Source: Betaproteobacteria bacterium (GTDB lineage Bacteria > Pseudomonadota > Gammaproteobacteria > Burkholderiales > JAHFQX01). Taken from it: DNA of 40,171 nucleotides. The DNA lies in assembly GCA_023259135.1 (NCBI GenBank), contig JAHFQX010000026.1, positions 1 through 40,171 of the forward strand, given 5' to 3'. Below the pieces are notes generated by a model. The model searched no databases and was not told where the DNA came from. It saw nothing but the letters and a program-made list of their open reading frames with translations. Below, piece after piece: positions 4,414-30,823 of the stretch. The position numbers and the translations under genes are program-made. How positions within the stretch are numbered: the first letter of the stretch is position 1; each line of letters opens with the position of its first letter.

Positions 4414-7239
4414 TTATGCGGCGGCTAGCAACTCTCGCAGCACATAGGGCAGGATACCGCCATGGCGGTAGTAGTCCACCTCGATGGGAGTGTCGATGCG
4501 GAGCAGCACTTTCGCTTCCCGGCGGCTACCGTCTTTCCCGTGGATCACCAGGGTGACGTCCTGCTGCGGACGGATGCCTTGCTCCAGACCGAAAATATCG
4601 AAAGTTTCATCCCCTCGGATGCCTAGGGATTCAGCGCTGTCATCGGCCTTGAATTGCAGGGGCAGTACCCCCATGCCTACCAGGTTGCTGCGATGGATGC
4701 GCTCGAAGCTCTTGGCGATGACCGCTTTCACCCCCAGCAACTGGGTGCCCTTAGCGGCCCAGTCGCGGCTGGAGCCGGTGCCGTATTCCTCTCCGCCGAA
4801 CACGATGGTGGGCGTGCCTTGGGCGATGTATTGCATGGCGGCATCATAGATGCTCATTTGGGCGCCGTCGGGCTGGTGCAGGGTAATGCCGCCTTCTGAG
4901 CCGGGGATCATCAGGTTCTTGATGCGCACGTTGGCGAAAGTGCCCCGCACCATGACGTCGTGATTGCCGCGGCGGGAGCCGTAGCTGTTGAAATCCGCTA
5001 CCGGCACGCCGTGTTCCTGGAGGTATTTGCCGGCGGGGGAGTTGGCTTTGATGGAGCCGGCCGGGCTGATATGGTCGGTGGTCACCGAATCCCCGAAAAT
5101 CCCCAGGGCCCGGGCTCCCGTCACGTCGCCGGTTTGGCCGGGCTGCATGCCAAAATCCTCGAAAAACGGCGGCTCGGCGATGTAAGTGGATTTCTCCCAT
5201 TTATAGACCTGCCCGGCGGTGGCGGGGATGCTGTTCCACAGTGGGTTGTCTTTAGTGAAATCGCCGTAGAGCCGCCGGAAGGTCTTGGGGTCGATGGCGT
5301 ATTTCATGGCGGCGTGGATTTCTTTGCTGGAAGGCCATACGTCTCCCAGCCACACCGGCTTGCCGTTGTGGCCGGTGCCCAGGGGCTCGGTCATCAGATC
5401 CTTCAGCACCGTACCGGTGATGGCGTAGGCCACCACTAGCGGTGGGGAGGCCAGGAAGTTGGCCTTGATATTGGCGTGGATCCGCGCTTCGAAGTTGCGG
5501 TTGCCGGACAGCACCGCGGCGCACACCAGGTCGTTCTTGACGATAGTCGCTTCAATGCCCGGATCCAGCGGTCCGGCGTTGCCGATGCAGGTGGTGCAGC
5601 CGTAAGCCGAGACGTAGAACCCCAATTGTTCCAGATACGGCAGCAGCCCCGCCCGCTTGAGATAATCGGTGACAACTCGGGAACCCGGGGCCAGCGAGGT
5701 CTTGATGTGCCGTTTGACGGTCAGGCCTTTTTCCACGGCTTTCTTGGCCAGCAGGCCGGCGGCGATCAGCACTCCGGGGTTAGAGGTGTTGGTGCAGGAA
5801 GTGATGGCGGCAATCAGCACGTCTCCGTGCCCCAGGGAAAGGGTTGCATCGGCGGGCGCCGGGGCGCTCACCGTATCGGGCGTGGGACGGTTGTCGACCA
5901 TCTCCACCACATCGGCCGGAGCCCCCCGCTGCAGCGATTCGGCAGCCACGGTGCCGCCCCCGCTGATCCCGGCGCCATTTTCCAGCCAGATCTTTAAACG
6001 CTTTCCCAGTTCCTCCGGCTTTTTGGAAAAGCCATTGTCCGCCACCGGTTTGGAGAAGAGTTCGGTGAATTTAAGCTTCACCCGGCCGATTTCGATGCGG
6101 TCCTGGGGCCGCTTGGGCCCGGCCAGGGACGGGGCGATCGAACCCAGATCCAGGGTCAGCACGGTGCTGTAGTCGATGTCGCCTGCTTGAGGAATGCCGT
6201 ACAGTCCCTGGGCCTTGAAATAGGCGGCGAAGGCGCGGATTTCTTGCCGGGTGCGGCCGGTGCCTGCGAAATAGTCCATCGTCACGTCATCCACGGGGAA
6301 GAAGCCCATGGTGGCGCCGTATTCCGGGGCCATATTGGCGATGGTGGCGCGGTCGGGGAGAGCCAGGGAGGCGGTGCCTGGGCCAAAGAACTCGACGAAC
6401 TTGCCGACCACTTTTTCCTTGCGGAGCATCTCGGTGACGGTGAGCACGAGATCGGTGGCGGTGACGCCTTCCCGCAACTGGCCGGTGAGGTGGACGCCCA
6501 CCACGTCGGGAGTGAGGAAGTACACCGGCTGGCCCAGCATGCCGGCTTCCGCTTCAATGCCGCCCACGCCCCAGCCCACCACGCCGATGCCGTTGATCAT
6601 GGTGGTGTGGGAGTCGGTGCCGACCAGGGTATCCGGATAATACACGCCGTCTTTGTGATGCACTCCGCGAGCCAGATACTCCAGATTGACCTGATGCACG
6701 ATACCGATGCCGGGGGGCACCACCTTGAAGGTGTCGAAGGCCTGCATCCCCCATTTCATGAATTGGTAGCGCTCCTTGTTGCGTTGGAACTCCAACTTCA
6801 TGTTCAAATCCAGGGCGTTCTTGGCGCCGAAATAATCGATTTGCACGGAATGATCCACCACCAGATCGACCGGGACCAAGGGTTCGATCATCTTGGGATT
6901 CTTGCCCATCCGCTGCGCGACGCCCCGCATCGCGGCCAGGTCGGCCAGCAAGGGCACGCCGGTGAAATCTTGCAGCACGATGCGCGCCACCACGAAGGGG
7001 ATCTCGTCGGTGCGGGCCGCGTTGGGTTTCCAGTTGGCCAGTTGCCGGACATGTTCTTGGGTGATCTTCTTGCCGTCGCAGTTGCGTAGCACCGATTCCA
7101 GCACGATGCGAATCGACACCGGCAGCCGGGAGACGGGACCGACCCCGGCTTTTTCCAGGGCGGGCAAGGAATGGAACTGGCCCTTGCGTCCCGAGCCCAG
7201 GGAAAACGCTTGCAGGGAATTGAAGGGGTTTTGGCTCAT
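4414..7239 (-). CDS. acnA: Aconitate hydratase AcnA (also serves the methylcitrate cycle)
   Basis: This 941-residue protein is an IRP1/AcnA-type aconitase. It isomerises citrate and isocitrate and, in a prp operon, would also hydrate 2-methyl-cis-aconitate to 2-methylisocitrate. The 4Fe-4S ligands are C482 (SCTNTSNP) and C548/C551 (YGCTTCIGN). [16 protein letters not shown] (205-220) and the C-terminal [15 protein letters not shown] are substrate-site motifs. It is about 50 residues longer than the E. coli protein as remembered. The extra length appears to lie in a Gly/Pro/Ala-rich linker at about 420-470. The ATG at 7239 has AAGGAG in front; an upstream ATG in the same frame would overlap prpD and is rejected. 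It is the last gene of the minus-strand operon, 19 bases after prpD. Confidence 0.95.
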
Positions 7240-7258
7240 TGCAAATGCTCCTTGGCTC

Positions 7259-8710
7259 TCAGATGACGTACAGATCCACGTATTCGTGAACCGGCATGGC
7301 TTCCAGCTTGTCTTGGTCGAGGCTCGCGTCGAGGATCGTTTGCTGTTGCTTGGCGGGAAAGCGCCGCGCCAGATTGGTGCGGAATTTAGCTTCCAGCAGC
7401 GGAATGCCTTCCTTGCGGCGGCGCTTGTGGCCGATGGGGTATTCGCAGACCACTTCCTTGAGTTTCTTGCCATCGGCGAATTCCACCGTCAGGGCATTGG
7501 CGATGGAGCGCTTGTCCGGATCGTGGTAATCCTCGGTGAACTGCTTGTCCTCGACGCAGACGATTTTGTCCCGCAGCTTGTCGATGCGCGGATCGCCGGC
7601 CACCTGGTCTTCGTAATCGGCGGCGGTCAGGCGGCCGAAAATGATGGGCACCGCCACCATGTACTGGATGCAATGGTCCCGGTCGGCCGGATTGTCGAGG
7701 GGGCCTTTTTTGTCGATGATGCGGATGCAGGCTTCATGGGTGCGGATGGTGATTTTCTTGATGTCTTCCGGACGCTTGCCGAGCTTTTGCATTTCCTTGT
7801 GAATCTGCATGGCGCATTCCACGGCGGTCTGGGAATGGAATTCAGCGGGAAAGGAAATCTTGAACAGCACGTTTTCCATCACATAGGAGCCGTAGGGGCG
7901 CTGAAATTTGAAGGCGTTGCCCTTGAACAGCACGTCGTAGAAGCCCCAGGTCTTGGCGGACAGCACCGAGGGGTAGCCCATCTCGCCGGTCTTGGCGATG
8001 AGCGCCAGCCGCACGGCGCGGGCAGTGGCATCCCCGGCGGCCCAGGATTTGCGGGAGCCGGTGTTGGGGGCATGGCGGTAGGTCCGCAGGCTTTGGCCGT
8101 CTACCCAGGCCAGCGATACGGCGTTGATGATCTCGTCCCGGGACAGCCCCAGCATTTGGGCCACCACGGCGGTGGAGGCCACTTTCACCAGCACCACATG
8201 ATCCAGGCCCACCTTGTTGAAGGAGTTTTCCAAGGCGATGCAGCCTTGGATTTCGTGGGCCTTGATCATGCCTTCCAGCACGGCCTTCATGGTCAGGGGC
8301 TTTTTGCCCTGGGCGACGGCGTTGCGGGACAGCCAGTCGGCGGTGGCCAGGATGCCCCCCAGATTGTCCGACGGATGGCCCCATTCTGCGGCCAGCCAGG
8401 TGTCGTTGAAATCCAGCCAGCGAATCATGGCGCCGATGTTGAAGGCGGCCTGCACCGGGTCCAGTTGAAACTGGGTCCCCGGCACCTTGGCGCCGTTAGG
8501 CACCATCGTACCGGGCACGATGGGCCCCAGCAGCTTGGCGCAAGCGGGATATTCGAGAGCTTCCAGACCGCACCCCAGAGTGTCGATCAGGCAGTTACGG
8601 GCGGTTTCATAGGCGAGCTTGCCCTTGATTTTGTACTTGATGACGTAATCGGCGATGTCGACCAGGACTTTGTCGGGCTTGGGGCGAACGTTGGAGATGT
8701 GAGCGGACAT
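7259..8710 (-). CDS. prpD: 2-methylcitrate dehydratase PrpD
   Basis: This 483-residue MmgE/PrpD-family protein dehydrates 2-methylcitrate to 2-methyl-cis-aconitate in the methylcitrate cycle. The sequence follows the enterobacterial PrpD pattern from end to end. It opens [13 protein letters not shown], continues [20 protein letters not shown] and [20 protein letters not shown] (the active-site region), and closes [13 protein letters not shown] partner aconitase (acnA) follows directly, as expected for a PrpD-type rather than an AcnD/PrpF-type pathway. The family match fixes the start at 8710, yet no Shine-Dalgarno sequence is visible upstream (CCACACACC). The 57-base gap to prpC is the largest inside the operon. 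Confidence 0.97.
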
Positions 8711-8767: not shown

Positions 8768-9916
8768 TTAGCTCCGCTGATCGATGGCGGCGAATTTAAC
8801 GTTTTCCGGTCCGACATAATGGGCGCTGGGGCGGATGATCTTGCCGTCCATGCGTTGCTCGATGACGTGGGCGCTCCAGCCGCTGGTGCGGGCGATTACG
8901 AACAGCGGCGTGAACATGGCGGTGGGCACGCCCATCATGTGGTAGGAGACCGCGGAGAACCAATCCAGGTTGGGAAACATTTTCTTGATTTCCCACATCA
9001 CCGACTCCAGCCGTTCGGCGATGGCGAACATCTTCATGTTGCCGGCGTCGGCCGAGAGTTTGCGAGCCACTTCCTTGATGACCTTGTTGCGGGGATCGGC
9101 GATGGTATAGACCGGGTGGCCGAAACCGATCACCACCTCTTTGTTCTCCACGCGCCGCCGGATGTCGGCTTCGGCCTCGTCCGGGGTGTCGTAGCGTTTC
9201 TGGATTTCGAAGGCCACCTCATTGGCGCCGCCATGCTTGGGACCGCGCAGTGCGCCGATGGCGCCGGCGACGCAGGAATAAATATCCGATCCGGTGCCGG
9301 CGATGACTCGTCCGGCGAAGGTGGAGGCGTTGAATTCGTGCTCGGCGTATAGAATCAGGGAGGTGTGCATCGCCCGTACCCATAATTGCTGGGGGAGCTT
9401 GCCGTGCAGCAAGTGCAAAAAGTGGGCGCCGATCGAGTCATCGTCGGTTTCCACCTCGATGCAGCGGCCGTTGTGGCTGTAGTGATACCAATACAGCAGC
9501 ATGGAACCGAGGCAGGCCATCAGCCGGTCGGCGATGTCGCGGGCGCCGGAATGGTTGTGATCGTCTTTCTCCGGCAGCATGCAGCCCAAGGCCGATACGC
9601 CGGTGCGCATCACGTCCATGGGATGAGCGGACGGGGGCAATTGCTCCAGAACCGCTTGCACCGCCGCCGGCAGGCCGCGCAGCGCCTTCAGCTTGGTCTT
9701 GTAGGCGGCTAGTTCCGCGATGTTCGGCAGCTTGCCATGGACCAGCAGGTGGGCGATCTCCTCGAATTCGCAAGTGTCGGCGATATCCAGAATGTCGTAG
9801 CCGCGGTAATGGAGGTCGTTGCCGGTACGGCCCACGGTGCACAGGGCCGTGTTGCCGGCGGCAACCCCGGAAAGGGCGACGGATTTCTTCTTGCCGGGGA
9901 CGGGGGCTTCTCCCAT
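8768..9916 (-). CDS. prpC: 2-methylcitrate synthase PrpC
   Basis: This 382-residue citrate-synthase-fold enzyme condenses propionyl-CoA with oxaloacetate to give 2-methylcitrate. The catalytic residues lie in [11 protein letters not shown] (His), [13 protein letters not shown] (His) and [17 protein letters not shown] (Asp). The last stretch is the PrpC form rather than the PNVDFYSGI seen in the GltA of this window. PrpC enzymes often accept acetyl-CoA poorly, so this is probably not the main citrate synthase. Two ATGs compete: 9922 lies only 2 bases after AGGAG, while 9916 has an 8-base spacing and is chosen. The gene begins 3 bases after the prpB stop codon. Confidence 0.96.
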
Positions 9917-9918
9917 GG

Positions 9919-10803
9919 TCATTTCTCCTGTTGAAACAGTTGATCGAGCTTGGCTTCGAAAGCGTGATAGTCCAGGTAGCGGTACAGGTCTTCCCGTGTC
10001 TGCATCAAGGGTAGCACCGCTTGCTGGGTGCCGTCCTTCCGAATGGCCTGGTAAACCTGGAGGGCGGCGGCGCTCATGGCGCGGAAGGCTGACAGCGGGT
10101 AGAGCACCAGGCCGACCCCGGCGGAGGCCAGTTCATTCTTGGTGTAGAGCTCGGTTTGGCCGAACTCGGTGATGTTGGCCAGGATCGGGACTTTTACCGC
10201 ATCGGCGAATTTGCGGTACATGGCGAGATCGGTCATGGCTTCGGGAAAAATCATATCGGCTCCCGCCTCGACACAGGCGCAAGCCCGGTCGATGGCGGAT
10301 TGCAGCCCCTCCACCGCCAGGGCGTCGGTGCGGGCCATCACGACGAAATCAGCATTGGTCTTGGCGTCCACCGCGGCTTTGACTCGGTCCACCATCTCCG
10401 CGGCCGGAACGATGGCTTTGCCGGGCCGGTGGCCGCAACGCTTGGCCATCACCTGGTCTTCGATATGCATGGCGCCGGCGCCGAATTTAATGAGGGATTT
10501 GACCGTTCGGGCAATGTTGAAGGCGCCGCCGAAGCCGGTATCCACGTCCACCAGCAGCGGCAAGCCGGTGCTGTCGGTGATGCGGCGCACGTCGGTGAGC
10601 ACGTCGTCCAGGGTGGAGATTCCCAGGTCGGGCAGACCCAGGGAGCAGGCGGCGACTCCGCCGCCGGAAAGATACAAAGCCCGGAAACCCGAGCGTTCGG
10701 CCAAGCGGGCGGCATAGGCGTTGACGCAGCCCACCACCTGCAGCGGGGTTTCGGCTTGCAGCGCGGCGCGGAACCGGGCGCCGGCAGAGGTTTTGGAACT
10801 CAT
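9919..10803 (-). CDS. prpB: 2-methylisocitrate lyase PrpB
   Basis: This 294-residue member of the isocitrate lyase/PEP mutase superfamily cleaves 2-methylisocitrate into pyruvate and succinate, the last step of the methylcitrate cycle. The signature loop KRCGHRPGK carries the catalytic cysteine. [19 protein letters not shown] gives the Mg-binding aspartates, and [13 protein letters not shown] matches PrpB proteins. Length and motifs fit PrpB rather than a true isocitrate lyase, which is much longer. The ATG at 10803 has GAGG upstream. It lies 17 bases after the CoA-ester lyase gene. Confidence 0.97.
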
Positions 10804-10820
10804 GGGGACCTCGTTGCGGG

Positions 10821-11807
10821 TTACTGGAAAAATGCCCGTTCGGCGGCTTCCGGAATGGCTACGCCGGTGACTCGGGCTTTTTGCAGGACTTCCCAGAAGT
10901 AGCGGTAAGTCGCCCGGTCGTGGAGCTCCCCGGCATGTTGGATCGGCCCCCAGTCGGCCTGTTGAGCGGCCAGTAGGATGGTTGCGGCGGTCTCCACCTC
11001 GGCGAAATCGGGCTTCATGGCATCCACGATGGGCTGGATCTGGGCGGGATAGATGCTCCACATGCGCAGGAAGCCGAATTCCTGGCGGGCGCGGCAGGCA
11101 TCCAGGTAGGTGGCGTAGACGTTTTTGAGGTCCAAGGAAACGTTGTGGGAGGGGATTACGCCGTAGGTGAGGGCGGCGGCAACCACCTCGGCCTTGGCCC
11201 GGGCGATGAGCCGGTGCTCGAATTGGGCGGGGCTGCGCATGGCGGCGGCGGGAATGGCGCCATGGTGGCCGCTGATGAAATCCATCAAGCCGAAATCCAA
11301 TACCTGCATCCAGGGCAGGGCGGCGATGGCGAAGGCATCTTTCAGCGCCCCGTGGGTTTCCACCAGCACGTGGATGGGAATGTCCCGCTTGATGCCATGC
11401 TGGGCGGCTTTTTTCTGAATGTATTCGATCATTTCTCCGGCTTGGGTGACGCTGGTGGGCTTGGGGAGGGTGAGGTAAGCGAGATTTTCCCCGGCATTCG
11501 CCACCAGGATGTCCACGTCCTGCTTCCAGGCGGGGTGGGTGTAGTCGTGGATGCGGGCTCCCGCCATTTTCAGCTGGTTGGCCGGGGAGTTGACCAGCCG
11601 GGCCACCATCTCCGCGTGTTCCCGCTCCTTGCCCGCCGCCGCGCCGTCCTCGCAGTCGCAGGTGATGTCGAAGAGGGGTCCCAATTTTCGCTGCAGTTCC
11701 AGGGCCTTGGCAATCAACTTCTCGCTGCCGGCGAAGTGTTCGCAGGAGGGGATGACGGGGAAGGGTTTTTCTCCCTTGAAGAGAGCGTCATTGGGGTGGG
11801 TTTTCAT
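10821..11807 (-). CDS. HpcH/HpaI-family CoA-ester lyase, probable malyl-CoA/beta-methylmalyl-CoA lyase
   Basis: This 328-residue CitE-like lyase belongs to the family that splits 3-hydroxyacyl-CoA esters. Examples are L-malyl-CoA to acetyl-CoA plus glyoxylate, beta-methylmalyl-CoA to propionyl-CoA plus glyoxylate, and citramalyl-CoA to acetyl-CoA plus pyruvate. Visible features are [16 protein letters not shown] (residues 47-61, the acidic motif of the family), VLVETHGAL (E150) and FGLMDFISG (D176), likely Mg and substrate ligands, and a C-terminal [13 protein letters not shown] like the lid segment of malyl-CoA lyases. Its stop lies just before prpB, and its ATG overlaps the stop of the hydratase-like gene (ATGA). 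That context favours propionyl-CoA/glyoxylate chemistry. Exact substrate is inferred. Confidence 0.78.
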
Positions 11808-12874
11808 CGGTTCTCCATGGCGGTCCGCCGCGGCATCAGGACCGTGTAGTCCAGGTCCAGCACCACATTGGGGTGATAAGTCGGCTTGCCATTGTGTTCC
11901 GCGAAGCGGTCGCGGATTTCGGCGGCGGGAATGTTTTTGGTGCCCACCAGCCGCAGCCGCAGGGCCCCCAGGTCGTTACGGCCCGGGAGGGGCCATTGTT
12001 CCAGCACTTCGGTGCTGGCATAGAGGGTATCGCCGGCGTAGCTGGGGTTGCAGTGGGCGCCAGCGTTGATGGCGGCTACGTTCAAAACGTTTTCCAAGCC
12101 TTCGTAATTGAGGGCGTGGCACACCGCAATGACGTGTCCGCCATAGACCAAGCGCTTGCCCCCGGCCGCCTGGGCGTTGAAGTGCAGCCGGGCAGGGTTC
12201 TGGTAGAGCTTGGTGGCCAAGGTATGGTCGGACTCGTCCAGGGTCATGCCGCTGGCGTTGTCGATGCGCTCTCCCGGCCGATAGTCTTCCCAGTAGTCTC
12301 GCCCGGCAGTGGCTGCGGGATCGAGCTTGCCGGGCCGCAGAAAGGCGGGTATCGCCAATCGCTCCGCCGGCACGGATTCCGGCAGCTCCGGAATCAGCGG
12401 TTCCGGGGCGGGGGCCGCCAGATTCCGCTTGTTGACCATGACCCAGCGAATCCACGTCAGGACATCTTGTCCGTGTTGATCGCGAACCGTGGAACGAACG
12501 TAGACCACGCCGTTCTTGCCGCTGGAATTTTGTTTCAGGCCGATAACCGTCGAGTCGGCCGTCAGAGTGTCCCCTGGGTAGACCGGCCGCAGGAATCGCA
12601 GATCGGCGTAACCCAGATTAGCTACCGCATTGAGGGAGATATCGGGAACCGTCTTGCCGAAGCCGATATTGAAAACCAGGAAATCGTGCAACGGGGTGGC
12701 GGGGTACCCGCAGGCGGCGGCTAGCGGAGCGGCGCAATGCAGCGGGTGCCGGGCCCCGGTGAAAGCGATGTAGAGGGAGCGGTCTCCCTCGCTCAGGGTG
12801 CGGGGAGTGCCGTGAACCAGGCTTTGCCCGACCCAGAAATCCTCGAAAAAATGACCTGGCCGGGTTTTGGACAC
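11804..12874 (-). CDS. Double-hotdog MaoC-type hydratase, probable mesaconyl-CoA hydratase (beta-methylmalyl-CoA dehydratase)
   Basis: This 356-residue protein has two MaoC-like hotdog halves. The N-half (about 1-150) contains EGDRSLYIAFTGARHPLH and DFLVFNIGFGKTVPDIS. The C-half (about 190-350) contains LDESDHTLATKLYQNPARLHF, with N226, P227 and H231 in hydratase-2-like positions, then YGGHVIAVCHAL. The pattern resembles mesaconyl-CoA hydratases of the ethylmalonyl-CoA and 3-hydroxypropionate pathways, which interconvert beta-methylmalyl-CoA and mesaconyl-C1-CoA. It is translationally coupled to the CoA-ester lyase, the enzyme that would act next. The start is GTG at 12874 with GAGGA 9 bases upstream, 12 bases after the mdh stop. 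A mesaconyl-C4-CoA or itaconyl-CoA hydratase is the main alternative. Confidence 0.78.
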   Translation of the reverse strand: MSKTRPGHFFEDFWVGQSLVHGTPRTLSEGDRSLYIAFTGARHPLHCAAPLAAACGYPATPLHDFLVFNIGFGKTVPDISLNAVANLGYADLRFLRPVYPGDTLTADSTVIGLKQNSSGKNGVVYVRSTVRDQHGQDVLTWIRWVMVNKRNLAAPAPEPLIPELPESVPAERLAIPAFLRPGKLDPAATAGRDYWEDYRPGERIDNASGMTLDESDHTLATKLYQNPARLHFNAQAAGGKRLVYGGHVIAVCHALNYEGLENVLNVAAINAGAHCNPSYAGDTLYASTEVLEQWPLPGRNDLGALRLRLVGTKNIPAAEIRDRFAEHNGKPTYHPNVVLDLDYTVLMPRRTAMENR

Positions 12875-12886
12875 GATCTTGAGTCC

Positions 12887-13870
<984 letters not shown>

Positions 13871-25904: not shown

Positions 25905-27812
25905 ATGGGAGATTCTTACCAAGCTTTCCATCGCCGTTCCATAGAAGACCGGGAAGCTTTTTGGGCGGAGCAGGCCCGGCGCATTGATTGGCACAAACCC
26001 TTCGGCCCAGTGCTGGATTACCGCCGGCCGCCCTTCGCCAAATGGTTCGTGGGCGGCGAGACCAACCTTTGCCACAATGCCCTGGACCGCCACTTGGCGG
26101 AGCGGGGCGAGCAACCCGCACTGATCTATCTTTCCACCGAAACCGGCCAGCAGGGCAGTTATACCTATCGGCAACTGCATGCCGAGGTGAATCGCTGCGC
26201 CGCGGTGATGCAAGGCCTGGGAGTGAAAAAGGGCGACCGGGTGCTGGTGTACATGCCCATGATCGCCGAAGCGGTATTCGCCATCCTGGCTTGCGCCCGG
26301 CTGGGAGCCATTCACTCGGTGGTCTTCGGCGGGTTCGCCTCCCACAGCCTGGCGGCCCGCATCGATGACGCCCGCCCCAAGCTCATGGTCACCAGCGATG
26401 CCGGCATGCGGGGCGGCAAGGTGATCCCCTACAAGCACCTGGTGGACGAAGCCATCCGCCTTTCCGCGACTCCCCCGGAAAAAGTGCTGATCTGCAATCG
26501 GGGCCTGGACCCCGGCATGAGCTGGGTCGCAGGCCGGGATCTGGATTACGCCCCGCTGCGGGAAGCCCATCTCAACGCCCAAGTTCCCGTGGCCTGGCTC
26601 GAATCTTCCGAGCCCAGCTACATTCTTTACACCTCCGGGACCACCGGCAAGCCCAAGGGCGTGCAACGGGATACCGGTGGCCATGCGGTGGCCCTGGCGG
26701 CGTCCATGGAATACATTTTCTGCTGCGATCCCGGCGATACCATGTTCTGCACCTCGGACATCGGCTGGGCGGTGGGCCATTCCTACATCATCTATGGGCC
26801 GCTGCTGCGCGGCATGACCACCGTCATGTACGAAGGGCTGCCCATCCAGCCGGACCCCGGTATTTGGTGGCGGATCGTGGAGCAGCATCGCCCCAAGGTC
26901 ATGTTCAGTTCCCCCACGGCGGTTCGCGTCTTGAAAAAGCAAGACCCAGCCTACCTCAAGCAGTACGACGTCGGCAGCCTGCGCTACCTGTTCCTGGCCG
27001 GAGAGCCCCTGGATGAGCCTACCGCCCGCTGGATTTCCCAGGAATTGGGAGTGGAAGTCATCGATAACTATTGGCAGACCGAAACCGGCTGGCCGATCCT
27101 CGCGGCGACTCCGGGAATAGAAAAACTACCCCGCAAGTTCGGTTCTCCGAGCTTTCCGGTCTACGGCTACGATATGCGGCTGTTGCACGAGCAAACCGGG
27201 GAGCCGGTGGGCGCCAACGAGCGGGGGGTGGTGACTATTGTTCCGCCCCTGCCGCCGGGTTGCATGACCACCGTATGGGGGGACGATGAGCGCTTTGTCC
27301 AAACCTATTTCAGCGGATTCCGGCAGCAGGTTTATTCCACTTTCGACTGGGCTACCCGAGACGCCGACGGCTATTACTTCATTCTGGGACGCACCGACGA
27401 CGTCATCAACGTGGCGGGCCACCGGCTGGGCACTCGGGAAATCGAGGAAGCCATTAGCACCCATCCGGCGGTGGCCGAAGCCGCGGTGGTGGGCACCCGC
27501 GATCCGGTGAAAGGCCAGGCGGTGACCGCCTTCGTGGTGCTCAAGGATGCCACTCAAACCCAGACCGAAGCCGGTGCGGCGGCTATGGAAAAGGCGGTGA
27601 TGGCCACGGTGGACGAACAGTTGGGAGCCATCGCCCGTCCCGCCCAGGTCCATTTCATCACCTTGCTGCCCAAGACCCGCTCCGGCAAAGTGTTGCGCCG
27701 CAGTCTGCAAGCCCTGGCGGAGCGCCGCGATCCCGGCGACCTGACTACCTTGGACGATCCCACCGCCCTGGAACAGGTGCGTGCGGCGGTGGCGCCTCCC
27801 CGCAAGAAATGA
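25905..27812 (+). CDS. prpE: Propionyl-CoA synthetase PrpE
   Basis: This 635-residue AMP-forming acyl-CoA synthetase activates propionate to propionyl-CoA, the entry step of the methylcitrate cycle. The phosphate-binding motif YILYTSGTTGKPKGVQRDTG (from residue 239) has the PrpE-type ending QRDTGG. SDIGWAVGHSYIIYGPLL and NYWQTETGWP are family motifs. The adenylation lysine is K595 in RSGKVLRR, a residue often controlled by acetylation in this family. The start has a perfect AGGAGG 8 bases upstream, the best ribosome site in the window, after a 107-base gap from zapE. Acetate may be a side substrate. It is separated from prpBCD by the whole sdh-suc operon. Confidence 0.96.
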   Translation: MGDSYQAFHRRSIEDREAFWAEQARRIDWHKPFGPVLDYRRPPFAKWFVGGETNLCHNALDRHLAERGEQPALIYLSTETGQQGSYTYRQLHAEVNRCAAVMQGLGVKKGDRVLVYMPMIAEAVFAILACARLGAIHSVVFGGFASHSLAARIDDARPKLMVTSDAGMRGGKVIPYKHLVDEAIRLSATPPEKVLICNRGLDPGMSWVAGRDLDYAPLREAHLNAQVPVAWLESSEPSYILYTSGTTGKPKGVQRDTGGHAVALAASMEYIFCCDPGDTMFCTSDIGWAVGHSYIIYGPLLRGMTTVMYEGLPIQPDPGIWWRIVEQHRPKVMFSSPTAVRVLKKQDPAYLKQYDVGSLRYLFLAGEPLDEPTARWISQELGVEVIDNYWQTETGWPILAATPGIEKLPRKFGSPSFPVYGYDMRLLHEQTGEPVGANERGVVTIVPPLPPGCMTTVWGDDERFVQTYFSGFRQQVYSTFDWATRDADGYYFILGRTDDVINVAGHRLGTREIEEAISTHPAVAEAAVVGTRDPVKGQAVTAFVVLKDATQTQTEAGAAAMEKAVMATVDEQLGAIARPAQVHFITLLPKTRSGKVLRRSLQALAERRDPGDLTTLDDPTALEQVRAAVAPPRKK

Positions 27813-28177
27813 TCGTCGCTCAGTCATCCCGGCGCCGGCTCTGGATCGCCTTGGCTTGGCTCGGCGTTGCGGCGGTGGTGGTGGGCTCCCTCATTCCCGT
27901 GAGCCAGGATGGCTTGGCGGAGGGCCAAGACAAACTCGTCCATGCCGCCATGTACGGCATTTTGATGGGATGCTTCTGCCGGGCTTATCCGGATCGGCGC
28001 CGCTGGGCGGCATGGGCTGGGGGGCTGATCGCCTTGGGGGTGGTCCTGGAATTCTTGCAAGGCTGGACCGGCACTCGTTCTTGCGATCCGTGGGACATGC
28101 TGGCCAACGGCAGCGGGGTGGCCGCGGTATGGCTGGGGCTCGGCCTTCAAGGGATGGGCGAGAAGAAACGGCCTTAA
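27809..28177 (+). CDS. VanZ-like membrane protein
   Basis: This 122-residue protein has three or four hydrophobic spans (about 12-29, 42-56, 66-82 and 100-116). It carries VanZ-family residues: DKLVHAAMYGIL in the second span, then LEFLQGWTGTRSCDPWDMLANGSGV with the conserved E, Q, D and N. VanZ proteins are small membrane proteins linked to glycopeptide tolerance in some hosts, but most have no known role. Its ATG overlaps the prpE stop (ATGA), so it is translated with prpE; whether that reflects function is unknown. Confidence 0.8.
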   Translation: MIVAQSSRRRLWIALAWLGVAAVVVGSLIPVSQDGLAEGQDKLVHAAMYGILMGCFCRAYPDRRRWAAWAGGLIALGVVLEFLQGWTGTRSCDPWDMLANGSGVAAVWLGLGLQGMGEKKRP

Positions 28178-28227
28178 CCCAGGGATGTTTCGCTCTGCGG
28201 CAAGCGCAAGGGACAAGAAGAACAAAT

Positions 28228-29646
28228 ATGGACAAACCGACCCCCGCCCGAGCCAGCCTTTCCGGGCTCATGTTGGTCATCGTGACCCTTGCCACTCTGG
28301 TGGACCAGTTCGGCAAAGGGGTGCCTCTGGCCGGGCACGCCGCCAATGCCGCCATGCTGTTGTATGTCGCCCTGGAATACCGCAACAGTCCCAGGGCCGC
28401 CAAAATTATCGTGTGGATTGCTGTTTTGTTCGCCGCCCTCCTGCTGCCGCGGGCGCGGGAGCCGTGGCTGCTGCTCCAGAAGGGAGTGGCGTTCGGCGCT
28501 TTCCTGAGCGCATTCTTCGCGGCCTTGGGATTCATCCGCGCCGCTTCTGAAAAATCCGGGCGCATTGAGCGTGCTGGCCGGCAATTGCTGGCGCAGCCGG
28601 CGGGCCGGCGCTACCTGGCGCTGACCCTGGGCAGCAATCTTTTCGGCCTGATCCTGAGCATGGGCGTGGTCAACCTGTTCGGGGTCATGGTCAAGCGCGG
28701 CAACCCGACGGAGAGCGGAGCGGAGGGCGGAAAACTTCGCGCCTTGCGGGAGCGGCGGGCCATGATGGCGATTCAACGCGGTTTTTCCATGGTGCCGACC
28801 TGGTCCCCGCTGTCCATCCCGATTCCCATCGTGTTGCAGGCCATCCCCACCCTTAGATGGGAAACGTTGGTGCCGGCGGCGCTGGCCGGCGCCTTGCTGC
28901 TGTTGCTGGCCGGGTGGGTGGATGACAAACTGGCTTTCAGCGGGCTCGAAAGCACCCGTGCCACGGACGGAAGCGGCGGCGGAAGCGGCGGTTGGATGGT
29001 GCATGCGCCGTTCGTTTTGCTGGTGTTGGGCATTTTCCTCGCTTCCGTGCTATTGGAAAAAACCGTGGGCAGTTCGATGGTGGTCGGCATGATGACCTGT
29101 GCCCCGCTGGCCGCGCTGCTGTGGATGGCCGGCCAAGCCTCCGGTCTCGGTTGGAAAAAGGGCGCGGCATCGCTGAGCCAACGCCTCAATCGGCAAGTGA
29201 CCGAGGTTTTCCCCCAATACCGCACTGAAATGATCATCATGTTCATGGCGGGCTTCTTCGGAGTGCTGGTGCGGGAAACCCTGCCGCCGGGAACAATCCA
29301 GGAAGGGATTCGGTTTCTTGCGATTTCGCCGCGCTGGCTGCCGACGATCACTTATTTGCTGGTGATCGTTCTTTCGAATCTGGCCTTGCATCCTATGCTG
29401 GCGGTCATCATCCTCAGTTCCGCCATGCCCAATCCGGTCCAGATGGGGATCTCGCCGCTTTCCATGGCTCTGGCCTATCTCTGCGGCTGGGGGGTGGGGA
29501 TCAGCGCCTCGCCGTACACGATATGCAACCTCATGATCGGGCAGTTGACCGGCAAAACCGCCCACTACGTGGCTTACCGCTGGAACGGCCGCTACCTGCT
29601 GGGGGTCACCTTGCTGGGCAGCGTCGTCCTTTATTTGCTGGCGTAG
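28228..29646 (+). CDS. Unrecognised polytopic membrane protein, transporter-like with two repeated halves
   Basis: This 472-residue protein is mostly hydrophobic, with roughly ten to twelve possible membrane spans. I do not recognise its family. Two halves look alike: SNL at 136-138 (GSNLFGLILSMG) followed by SPLS at 193-196, and SNL at 383-385 (LSNLALHPMLAVI) followed by SPYT at 428-431. Paired S-N and S-P motifs in helix breaks recall ion-transporter-superfamily carriers such as the DASS and NhaD groups; this is inference from pattern only. A Gly/Ser-rich cytoplasmic or periplasmic loop lies at about 247-256. The neighbours prpE and vanZ suggest, but do not prove, carboxylate transport. The ATG at 28228 has only a weak AAGAAG upstream. 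Confidence 0.6.
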   Translation: MDKPTPARASLSGLMLVIVTLATLVDQFGKGVPLAGHAANAAMLLYVALEYRNSPRAAKIIVWIAVLFAALLLPRAREPWLLLQKGVAFGAFLSAFFAALGFIRAASEKSGRIERAGRQLLAQPAGRRYLALTLGSNLFGLILSMGVVNLFGVMVKRGNPTESGAEGGKLRALRERRAMMAIQRGFSMVPTWSPLSIPIPIVLQAIPTLRWETLVPAALAGALLLLLAGWVDDKLAFSGLESTRATDGSGGGSGGWMVHAPFVLLVLGIFLASVLLEKTVGSSMVVGMMTCAPLAALLWMAGQASGLGWKKGAASLSQRLNRQVTEVFPQYRTEMIIMFMAGFFGVLVRETLPPGTIQEGIRFLAISPRWLPTITYLLVIVLSNLALHPMLAVIILSSAMPNPVQMGISPLSMALAYLCGWGVGISASPYTICNLMIGQLTGKTAHYVAYRWNGRYLLGVTLLGSVVLYLLA

Positions 29647-29651
29647 CAAGC

Positions 29652-29669
29652 CGGCCGATTTAACGGCCG
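29652..29669. terminator. Short hairpin between convergent genes, spanning a stop codon
   Basis: CGGCCG (29652-29657) and CGGCCG (29664-29669) form a 6-bp stem around ATTTAA. The loop holds the TAA stop of the patB-like gene read on the minus strand. The plus-strand membrane-protein gene ended at 29646. No T-run follows on either strand, so termination is uncertain. Confidence 0.35.
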
Positions 29670-30823
29670 CGTCGACCGCCGATGGCCTGGGCGATGCGCC
29701 GCAAGGCCTCCTCCAAGGTGGATCGCGGGCAGCCGAAATTAAGGCGCACATAGCCCGCCGCACCGAAGTCCTTGCCGTCCGATAGACCGACTCCCGCTTC
29801 CTCGAAGAACCGGGCGGGATCGGCTAGTCCGAGCCCCCGGGCGTCGATCCAGGCCAAATAGGTGGCTTGCGGCGGCACCATGGCAAGGCCCGGCAGGGCC
29901 GCCACCGCCGCCGTCACGGCTGCCCGGTTTTGCCGCAGGTAATCCAGCAAGGCCCGGCGCCAGGCGGCCCCCTCCCGATACGCCGCCTTGGCGGCGACGA
30001 AGCCAAAAATATTGACCGGCGGCACGATGCCGGCCATGACGGCGCGGAACCGCTGGCGCAGTTCCGCATTCGGAATGACGGCGAAGGAAAACCCCAGCCC
30101 CGGCAGGTTGAAGGTCTTGCTGGGGGCCATCAGGGTGATGGAGCGTTGCGCCGCGTCCGCGCCCAAAGCCGCGAAAGGCACGTGGCGCTTGTCCGCATCC
30201 AAAATCAGGTCGCAGTGGATTTCGTCGGAGCAGACGATCAAATCGTGCTGCCGGGCGAAATCGGCCACGGCCGTCAACTCCTCCCGGCCGTAGACTCGGC
30301 CCACCGGGTTGTGAGGATGGCACAGCATCAGCAACCGGGAACGGAGCGTGACCGCTTGTTCCAAGGCGGCCAAATCATGCTCCCAACGTCCATCGCGCTG
30401 CCGCAGCGGGACGCTGATCAGCGCTCTGCCGGCTCGGCGGGGCGCGGCGAGGAAGGGGGGATAAATGGGCGGGCAGACGATGACCCCGTCGCCTTCGTTC
30501 CCTGCCGCCCGGCAAGCCAGGTGCAGCCCCGAGGCCAGGCCCGGCAGCCACACCAGCCCATCGGGCGCCACTTCCCAGCCGTACTCGGCGGCCAAGTAGT
30601 CGCGGATCGCCGGGGCCAACTCCGCAGGCGGCGCCCCGTAGCCGAACACGCCGTGCTCCACCCGCTGCCGCAGTGCCCGGATGATTTCCGGGGGCGAAGT
30701 GAAATCCATGTCCGCGACCCATAAGGGCAGCACGTCCTTGCCCCGGTATTTGTCCCACTTCTCGCTGCCGGTGCCCCGGCGGTCGACAGGGGTGTCGAAG
30801 TCGTAGAAAGGCGAGGAGGACAT
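29660..30823 (-). CDS. patB: PatB/MalY-type PLP-dependent C-S lyase or aminotransferase
   Basis: This 387-residue fold-type I PLP enzyme resembles MalY/PatB cystathionine beta-lyases, which split cystathionine or cysteine conjugates into a thiol, pyruvate and ammonia. The N-terminus DFDTPVDRRGTGSEKWDKY and LPLWVADMDF is characteristic of this subgroup. HPHNPVGRVY binds the cofactor ring side, SDEIHCDLI (199-207) holds the aspartate that contacts the pyridine nitrogen, and the Schiff-base lysine is K236 in APSKTFNLPG. It is the last gene of a minus operon smpB-MFS-patB, 12 bases after the MFS gene. Substrate is not certain. Confidence 0.88.
   Translation of the reverse strand: MSSSPFYDFDTPVDRRGTGSEKWDKYRGKDVLPLWVADMDFTSPPEIIRALRQRVEHGVFGYGAPPAELAPAIRDYLAAEYGWEVAPDGLVWLPGLASGLHLACRAAGNEGDGVIVCPPIYPPFLAAPRRAGRALISVPLRQRDGRWEHDLAALEQAVTLRSRLLMLCHPHNPVGRVYGREELTAVADFARQHDLIVCSDEIHCDLILDADKRHVPFAALGADAAQRSITLMAPSKTFNLPGLGFSFAVIPNAELRQRFRAVMAGIVPPVNIFGFVAAKAAYREGAAWRRALLDYLRQNRAAVTAAVAALPGLAMVPPQATYLAWIDARGLGLADPARFFEEAGVGLSDGKDFGAAGYVRLNFGCPRSTLEEALRRIAQAIGGRRGR

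Follow-up and report, generated by a model that had tools for sequence, protein, structure and literature searches.

A putative elevator-type carrier encoded downstream of prpE belongs to a family without a Pfam or NCBIfam model

The window, the whole 40,171-nucleotide stretch of Betaproteobacteria bacterium DNA that was analysed, carries downstream of prpE a gene for a membrane protein that is predicted to have the elevator-carrier fold of the ion transporter superfamily. The protein is probably a stand-alone secondary elevator carrier coupled to Na+ or H+, and its substrate would most likely be a small organic acid. Judged by the curated libraries searched, its family appears to be undescribed; the kind of carrier is itself well known. 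In the first-pass annotation the protein had been read as a two-fold membrane carrier outside the families known by sequence, marked by SNL and SP motifs and linked with prpE. The architecture and the absence from known families are retained here, but the SNL residues and the prpE link are not.

The reading frame, which opens with ATG, is genuine and has homologues. The mechanically called ORF begins further upstream at position 27781, but L032, the closest homologue (59% identity), begins within four residues of the ATG at 28228. No second copy of the carrier was detected in the window's genome. Adjacency to prpE, pointed out earlier, is real, the ligase scoring well over its NCBIfam cut-offs (Table 1), with a single gene for a VanZ-family protein between the two. 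This gene overlaps the prpE stop by 4 bases and ends 50 bases before the carrier ATG, and because all three genes are on the same strand with so little space between them, prpE, the VanZ gene and the carrier gene plausibly form one transcript here. When positions 27600-29800 were scanned for promoters and terminators, nothing promoter-like was called and terminators were not in excess. On the 3′ side of the carrier, a PatB-family C-S lyase gene lies on the opposite strand.

Table 1. Genes and predicted structural features of the carrier and its upstream neighbours. Positions are those of the window.
Feature	Position	Strand	Remarks
prpE, propionate--CoA ligase	25905..27812	+	NCBIfam NF007815, 1128 bits (cut-off 955); TIGR02316, 1098 bits (cut-off 827)
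VanZ-family membrane protein, between prpE and carrier	27809..28177	+	NCBIfam NF037970, 23.4 bits (cut-off 20)
Carrier gene	28228..29646	+	472 aa; family without Pfam or NCBIfam model
Two extra N-terminal helices (residues 6-28 and 33-51), before the M-like core	28243..28380	+	DSSP of model
First re-entrant hairpin (residues 125-158, turn 144-145)	28600..28701	+	model, alignment
First SNL (residues 136-138), within helix	28633..28641	+	kept in 2/75 members
R184-G185-F186, one turn ahead of helix break	28777..28785	+	R184 in 74/75 members
First helix break (residues 188-197), W192-S193-P194	28789..28818	+	P194 in 75/75 members
Second re-entrant hairpin (residues 368-399, turn 385-388)	29329..29424	+	model, alignment
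Second SNL (residues 383-385), at turn	29374..29382	+	kept in 1/75 members
G420-W421 and second helix break with S428-P429	29485..29520	+	mirror of G185-F186...S193-P194

An AlphaFold2 model of the carrier, built without templates from 75 sequences, has a pLDDT of 93.4 and a pTM of 0.91. Foldseek returned 32 PDB matches at E≤0.001, nearly all of them TRAP, DASS, AbgT and ArsB carriers, the odd one being an integrative model. DASS and ArsB had both been proposed for structural comparison in the first-pass annotation, and in VIA-align the best match is ArsB (10tp_A; Z 25.3, 383 aligned residues, 3.7 Å). IseQM (9pym_A; Z 23.5, 433 residues, 4.4 Å), SiaQM (7qha_B; Z 23.3, 384 residues, 3.9 Å), yeast Pho90 (Z 23.2) and VcINDY (5uld_A; Z 22.1, 380 residues, 4.2 Å) score almost as high, and the first different fold in the ranking, that of the CNT transporters, is found at Z 8.2. 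The M-like core aligns from about residue 54-56 and is preceded in the model by two extra helices. Alignments that reach back to residue 2-3 are seen only with fused TRAP QM chains, the five listed entries covering 433-439 residues; with the separate SiaM chain the alignment starts at residue 56 (384 residues). On the strength of these alignment ranges, rather than of coordinates, the two N-terminal helices would occupy the place of the TRAP Q-side helices.

The model consists of two inverted repeats, each comprising a re-entrant hairpin and then a helix that a conserved proline interrupts. A separate model of residues 252-472, the C-terminal half, was built from 54 of the 75 sequences (pLDDT 91.7, pTM 0.80). 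Of its 24 VIA-align rows for carriers, 13 put it on the N-terminal half of the solved chain (VcINDY 4f35_D 121-240 and NaS1 8y5z_A 118-307 among them) and 11 on the C-terminal half (among them SiaQM 7qha_B 204-413). These rows have Z values of 6.3-10.0 and the first unrelated row has Z 5.6, although values of 6-10 can be reached by helical bundles through a common arrangement. Foldseek alone gave no significant match for this half (best E 0.75). Compared with each other by hhalign, the halves of the family are not significantly similar in sequence (2.1%), though they align in the expected register, and the two halves of DctM likewise reach only 0.7%. Two-fold inverted-repeat symmetry is supported in that this one half, taken by itself, fits either half of solved carriers. 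The earlier proposal of a two-fold inverted-repeat carrier is therefore supported, as one of the DASS, ArsB or TRAP kind, by a confident, internally symmetric model together with the matches of the isolated half.

Each half had originally been noted to show an SNL helix-break motif and a later SP motif. In the carrier, residues 136-138 and 383-385 read SNL and residues 193-194 and 428-429 read SP, with further SP pairs at residues 54, 367 and 409. Only the SP part proved to be a family feature. Both prolines are located at helix breaks, the second of which covers residues 428-431 in the model, and P429 is found in 70/75 members; the complete pair is kept in 67/75 members at 193-194 and in 50/75 at 428-429, position 428 being S in 53 and T in 22. 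SNL was rejected as a symmetry motif, as it is private to this protein (Table 1). Most members read G-Q at positions 383-384, and the two SNL sites are not equivalent, since the first is inside a helix 8 residues ahead of the hairpin turn and the second is at the turn. When the protein was shuffled 200,000 times, 0.4% of the shuffles had at least two SNL and 0.02% had SNL...SP in each half, but these percentages have to be read in the light of the motif having been picked afterwards. The halves have 26 tripeptides in common, with 20.6 expected.

A mirrored motif, G185-F186-x6-S193-P194 and G420-W421-x6-S428-P429, places a pair nine residues before each proline. R128-Y129 is present in all 75 members. 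The first hairpin turn has S or N at position 144 in 64/75 members and G146 in 73/75, and the second is N388-P389 in the family (N388 in 67/75) but H388-P389 in this carrier, whose own turns read SMG (144-146) and LALHP (385-389). SiaQM has a twin-proline motif at both Na+ sites (PMC9971032), and the SP prolines at the two helix breaks resemble the twin proline of the sodium-coupled TRAP carriers. In ArsB a single Asn is found at the hairpin turns where DASS has SNT (PMC13381914).

Searches of Pfam, NCBIfam and PDB sequences gave no credible match for the carrier or its homologues. The 75 aligned members were also scanned singly against Pfam and NCBIfam and none had a credible match, in line with the initial impression that the sequence as a whole does not resemble a known family. 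The best library matches were isolated (E ~0.002, one member each), and NCBIfam DcuC_1 touches 2/75 members with a best E of 0.007. Ten distant members had no credible Pfam match, and the PDB sequence search, including one with the family profile, returned only chance-level matches and designed helical proteins. The family was not found described in a literature search, a text search that cannot find a family by sequence. The alignment used comprises 67 of 80 loci kept from a one-genome-per-species scan (234 confirmed relatives), 7 loci from other genome searches and the window; it omits 12 near-copies picked by eye and one locus with an interrupted frame. The wide profile adds 22 distant members.

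By record title, the 80 kept relatives are mostly Rhodobacterales and Acetobacteraceae. In the window's own order the only match among 41 sampled genomes was the window itself, and matches were found in 20 of 369 sampled genomes of its class (E≤0.01) and, with the profile, in 29 of 398 of its phylum (E≤0.001). The carrier also matched 36 plasmid records and, among the matches listed, the copies are annotated as 'hypothetical protein' or have no feature. After L032, the nearest relatives are L033 and L034 (43% identity); all three are gammaproteobacterial by title and form a supported clade with the window in a quick tree. A distant sub-family of ~420-450 residues (L132, L134, L135, L136, L138, L013 and L015) was recognised by the profile only and has no Pfam match. 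The interrupted copy, in an Acetobacteraceae MAG (L039:2017-3432), is split into a frame of 141 aa and a second frame, either by an assembly error or as a pseudogene.

Profile comparisons suggest that the family is a separate branch with DctM as its nearest neighbour, as judged from hhalign scores against those of accepted cousins and controls. The wide profile matched DctM at 94% (E 1.2e-7, one pair; narrower profiles 56-87%), ArsB at 20%, CitMHS at 9.5%, DASS at 0.8%, DcuC at 0.3% and an MFS control at 8%. In the same set-up DctM matched DASS at 82%, ArsB at 87% and CitMHS at 96%, and four carrier-versus-MFS controls gave 0-15%. Pfam matches were found in 0/75 members for DctM (PF06808, at E≤1), DASS (PF00939; hhalign 0.8-5.2% over four profiles), ArsB (PF02040; 0.3-20%), CitMHS (PF03600; 2.7-25% apart from one sub-profile, which reached 71% over 142 columns) and DcuC (PF03606; 0.2-0.5%, with two DcuC sequences only). 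SNT, a DASS feature, is absent from both hairpin turns of the carrier.

If the protein works as its fold suggests, the two hairpins and broken helices would make up a transport domain that moves up and down against a fixed scaffold, which may be widened by the two extra N-terminal helices in the way that the Q subunit widens that of TRAP transporters. The twin prolines suggest that a cation, Na+ or, as in ArsB, H+, would act at the hairpin turns and proline breaks. The solute held between the turns with the aid of R184 would be small and most likely the anion of a short organic acid, and no adjacent binding protein would be needed. That cargo is suggested by the superfamily, by R184 near the first break and by the acid importers found beside relatives. 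It remains the likeliest on the evidence of the fold and of those importers rather than of prpE, although co-transcription with prpE here would make an organic acid plausible without naming which. The absence of the family Asn at the second turn of this carrier counts against this reading.

The genes around relatives were compared in 40 of the 80 loci, those on long enough contigs, and in 76 random stretches of the same contigs; presence was scored by tblastn from a small set of seeds taken from plasmids and the window, and the counts are lower bounds on both sides. Large TRAP permeases were found at 6/40 family loci and 0/76 random stretches (p 0.0013). TRAP or TTT genes were found at 6/40 and 2/76 (p 0.02, which is weak as about twenty gene classes were tested uncorrected). 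Of the 36 plasmid records 17 were examined, one of them without annotation, and TRAP or TTT genes are near 11 of the 16 annotated copies. A matched control on 10 of these 16 gave 8/10 against 0/10 random stretches; it omits the positives S. dubius, Marinobacter and P. zhejiangensis and three negatives, and the ten are non-independent, three sharing one layout and two another. Two of the ten, both negative, had 8-kb rather than 5-kb flanks. Over 52 scored rows of a quick tree with long branches flagged, the TRAP/TTT label changes at least 9 times, so the association with importers would have been gained or lost repeatedly. The branch of the window, L032, L033 and L034 has no TRAP or TTT gene and no common catabolic neighbour; the importer association belongs to other branches.

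Other neighbours are mixed. Among 30 nearby genes annotated with Pfam there are housekeeping genes, and AMP-binding, enoyl-CoA hydratase, FAA hydrolase, acetyl-CoA hydrolase, CoA-transferase, PutA, DctM, an AcrB-type pump and others turn up in individual cases. A conserved link with CoA metabolism was considered, as genes of CoA or fatty-acid catabolism occur at 12/16 annotated plasmid loci, but it was rejected because they also occur at 4/10 random plasmid stretches and CoA enzymes show no excess on chromosomes (6/40 loci, 13/76 random stretches). Membrane dipeptidase (M19) and chemotaxis receptor genes were each found at 4/40 loci and 0/76 random stretches; both were set aside as functional links and taken as inherited gene order, because they look confined to single lineages, the Salipiger group and the Acetobacteraceae. 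An M19 gene follows the carrier in L062 (9136-10257) and six other loci of the Salipiger group, some of which also have an oligopeptide ABC transporter. At most Acetobacteraceae loci the carrier is followed by a large methyl-accepting chemotaxis protein (L036:9438-11843 and ten others, the 11 sharing a cluster), which possibly senses the carrier's solute. In an alphaproteobacterial MAG (L078:1429-9194), two tandem carriers come right after a run of three consecutive acyl-CoA-ligase-like (AMP-binding) genes.

Export rather than uptake is possible, if on the unlikely side. The protein would then be a safety valve or a pump for an antimetabolite or metalloid, and beside a TRAP or TTT system it would release surplus acid. 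The top fold match is the efflux pump ArsB, with the AbgT pumps YdaH and MtrF also close, and where a complete TRAP or TTT importer is already present next door, another carrier would otherwise be redundant; one relative (L082) is beside an AcrB-type pump and another (L028) is near chromate-efflux and ArsR-type genes. However, DASS and TRAP importers score almost equally, the predicted fold is compatible with importer and exporter alike, and pump neighbours are not general in the family. A more specific and doubtful suggestion is that the family is a binding-protein-free offshoot of the TRAP permeases, with a two-helix remnant of or substitute for Q within the chain, and that in several lineages it serves as a second carrier beside complete TRAP or TTT systems, exporting or exchanging the same acid or its product. 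If true, this would show how dependence on a binding protein can be lost, or can be lacking in an ancestor, an open question for TRAP transporters.

That the protein is a dedicated importer of propionate, or of another acid of the methylcitrate cycle, feeding PrpE is rather improbable. Only the local adjacency to prpE speaks for propionate as cargo: prpE is on the same strand with one VanZ gene between, and prpC and prpD are within the same window, though ~18-21 kb off and on the other strand. The link with prpE that had been expected in relatives does not extend to them, as tblastn with the window's PrpE detected no orthologue at any of 97 loci, of which 80 are chromosomal and 17 on plasmids; all that it matched there were three distant acyl-CoA ligases (21-26% identity). 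AMP-binding enzymes were found at 0/40 relative loci and 5/76 random stretches, and L032, the closest relative, has unrelated neighbours, a 5′-nucleotidase-domain protein and a glycosyltransferase. To our knowledge, known acetate and propionate permeases have folds other than that of elevator carriers.

The window contains further genes related to the methylcitrate cycle. Positions 8768-13870 hold malate dehydrogenase, MaoC and HpcH/HpaI lyase genes, a prpB-like frame (identified by eye) and prpC in one block. The MaoC protein resembles RipB/Ich and 2-methylfumaryl-CoA hydratase and the lyase resembles RipC, all below cut-offs, and the block may be a branch through methylmalyl- or citramalyl-CoA that feeds the cycle. 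At 4417-8710, the aconitase beside prpD scores as AcnA, over the cut-offs, whereas for AcnD it reaches 796 bits against a cut-off of 1420; PrpD is thus combined with AcnA in this cycle.

A TRAP-type permease that needs a periplasmic binding protein encoded elsewhere is very unlikely. DctM is the nearest profile, the fused QM chains align almost from the first residue and there are other DctM genes in the genome. However, TRAP seeds (DctQ only as fused permease) detected no homologue of a binding protein or of a permease within the window (E 1e-4), binding proteins are near only 2/40 chromosomal relatives, both with a regular DctM, and no member matches Pfam DctM. A non-transporting protein on a carrier scaffold, such as a sensor, is barely credible, as the helix-break prolines and hairpin-turn residues are kept across the 75 members as in a working carrier, the chemotaxis gene of the Acetobacteraceae branch notwithstanding.

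We therefore favour a stand-alone elevator carrier, probably for a small organic acid. Since members from Pseudomonadota, whether plasmid-borne or chromosomal, are labelled 'hypothetical protein', a predicted carrier is missing from annotations and growth models, and a named family would allow a fuller reading of TRAP- and TTT-linked catabolic clusters.

Among known systems, TRAP DctM, SiaQM and IseQM resemble the carrier in fold across the whole M subunit (Z 23) and in a proline at both breaks (PMC9971032); theirs is also the nearest profile, and their fused QM chains span its N-terminal helices too. The carrier differs in having no DctM match and no partner in the window, and in place of a Q subunit it has its two N-terminal helices. 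ArsB gives the highest Z over 383 residues and, like most members of the family, has a single Asn at the turns (PMC13381914), but there is no profile match and the carrier itself has S144 and H388 at these positions. The DASS carriers VcINDY and NaCT share the two-fold elevator fold (Z ~22) and the proline breaks, and are set apart by the lack of a Na_sulph_symp match, by the turns without SNT and by the low hhalign scores. The AbgT pumps YdaH and MtrF are similar in fold (Foldseek E 1.4e-5 to 8e-4; Z 19.2 and 15.0) and are distinguished by the absence of a Pfam or NCBIfam match.
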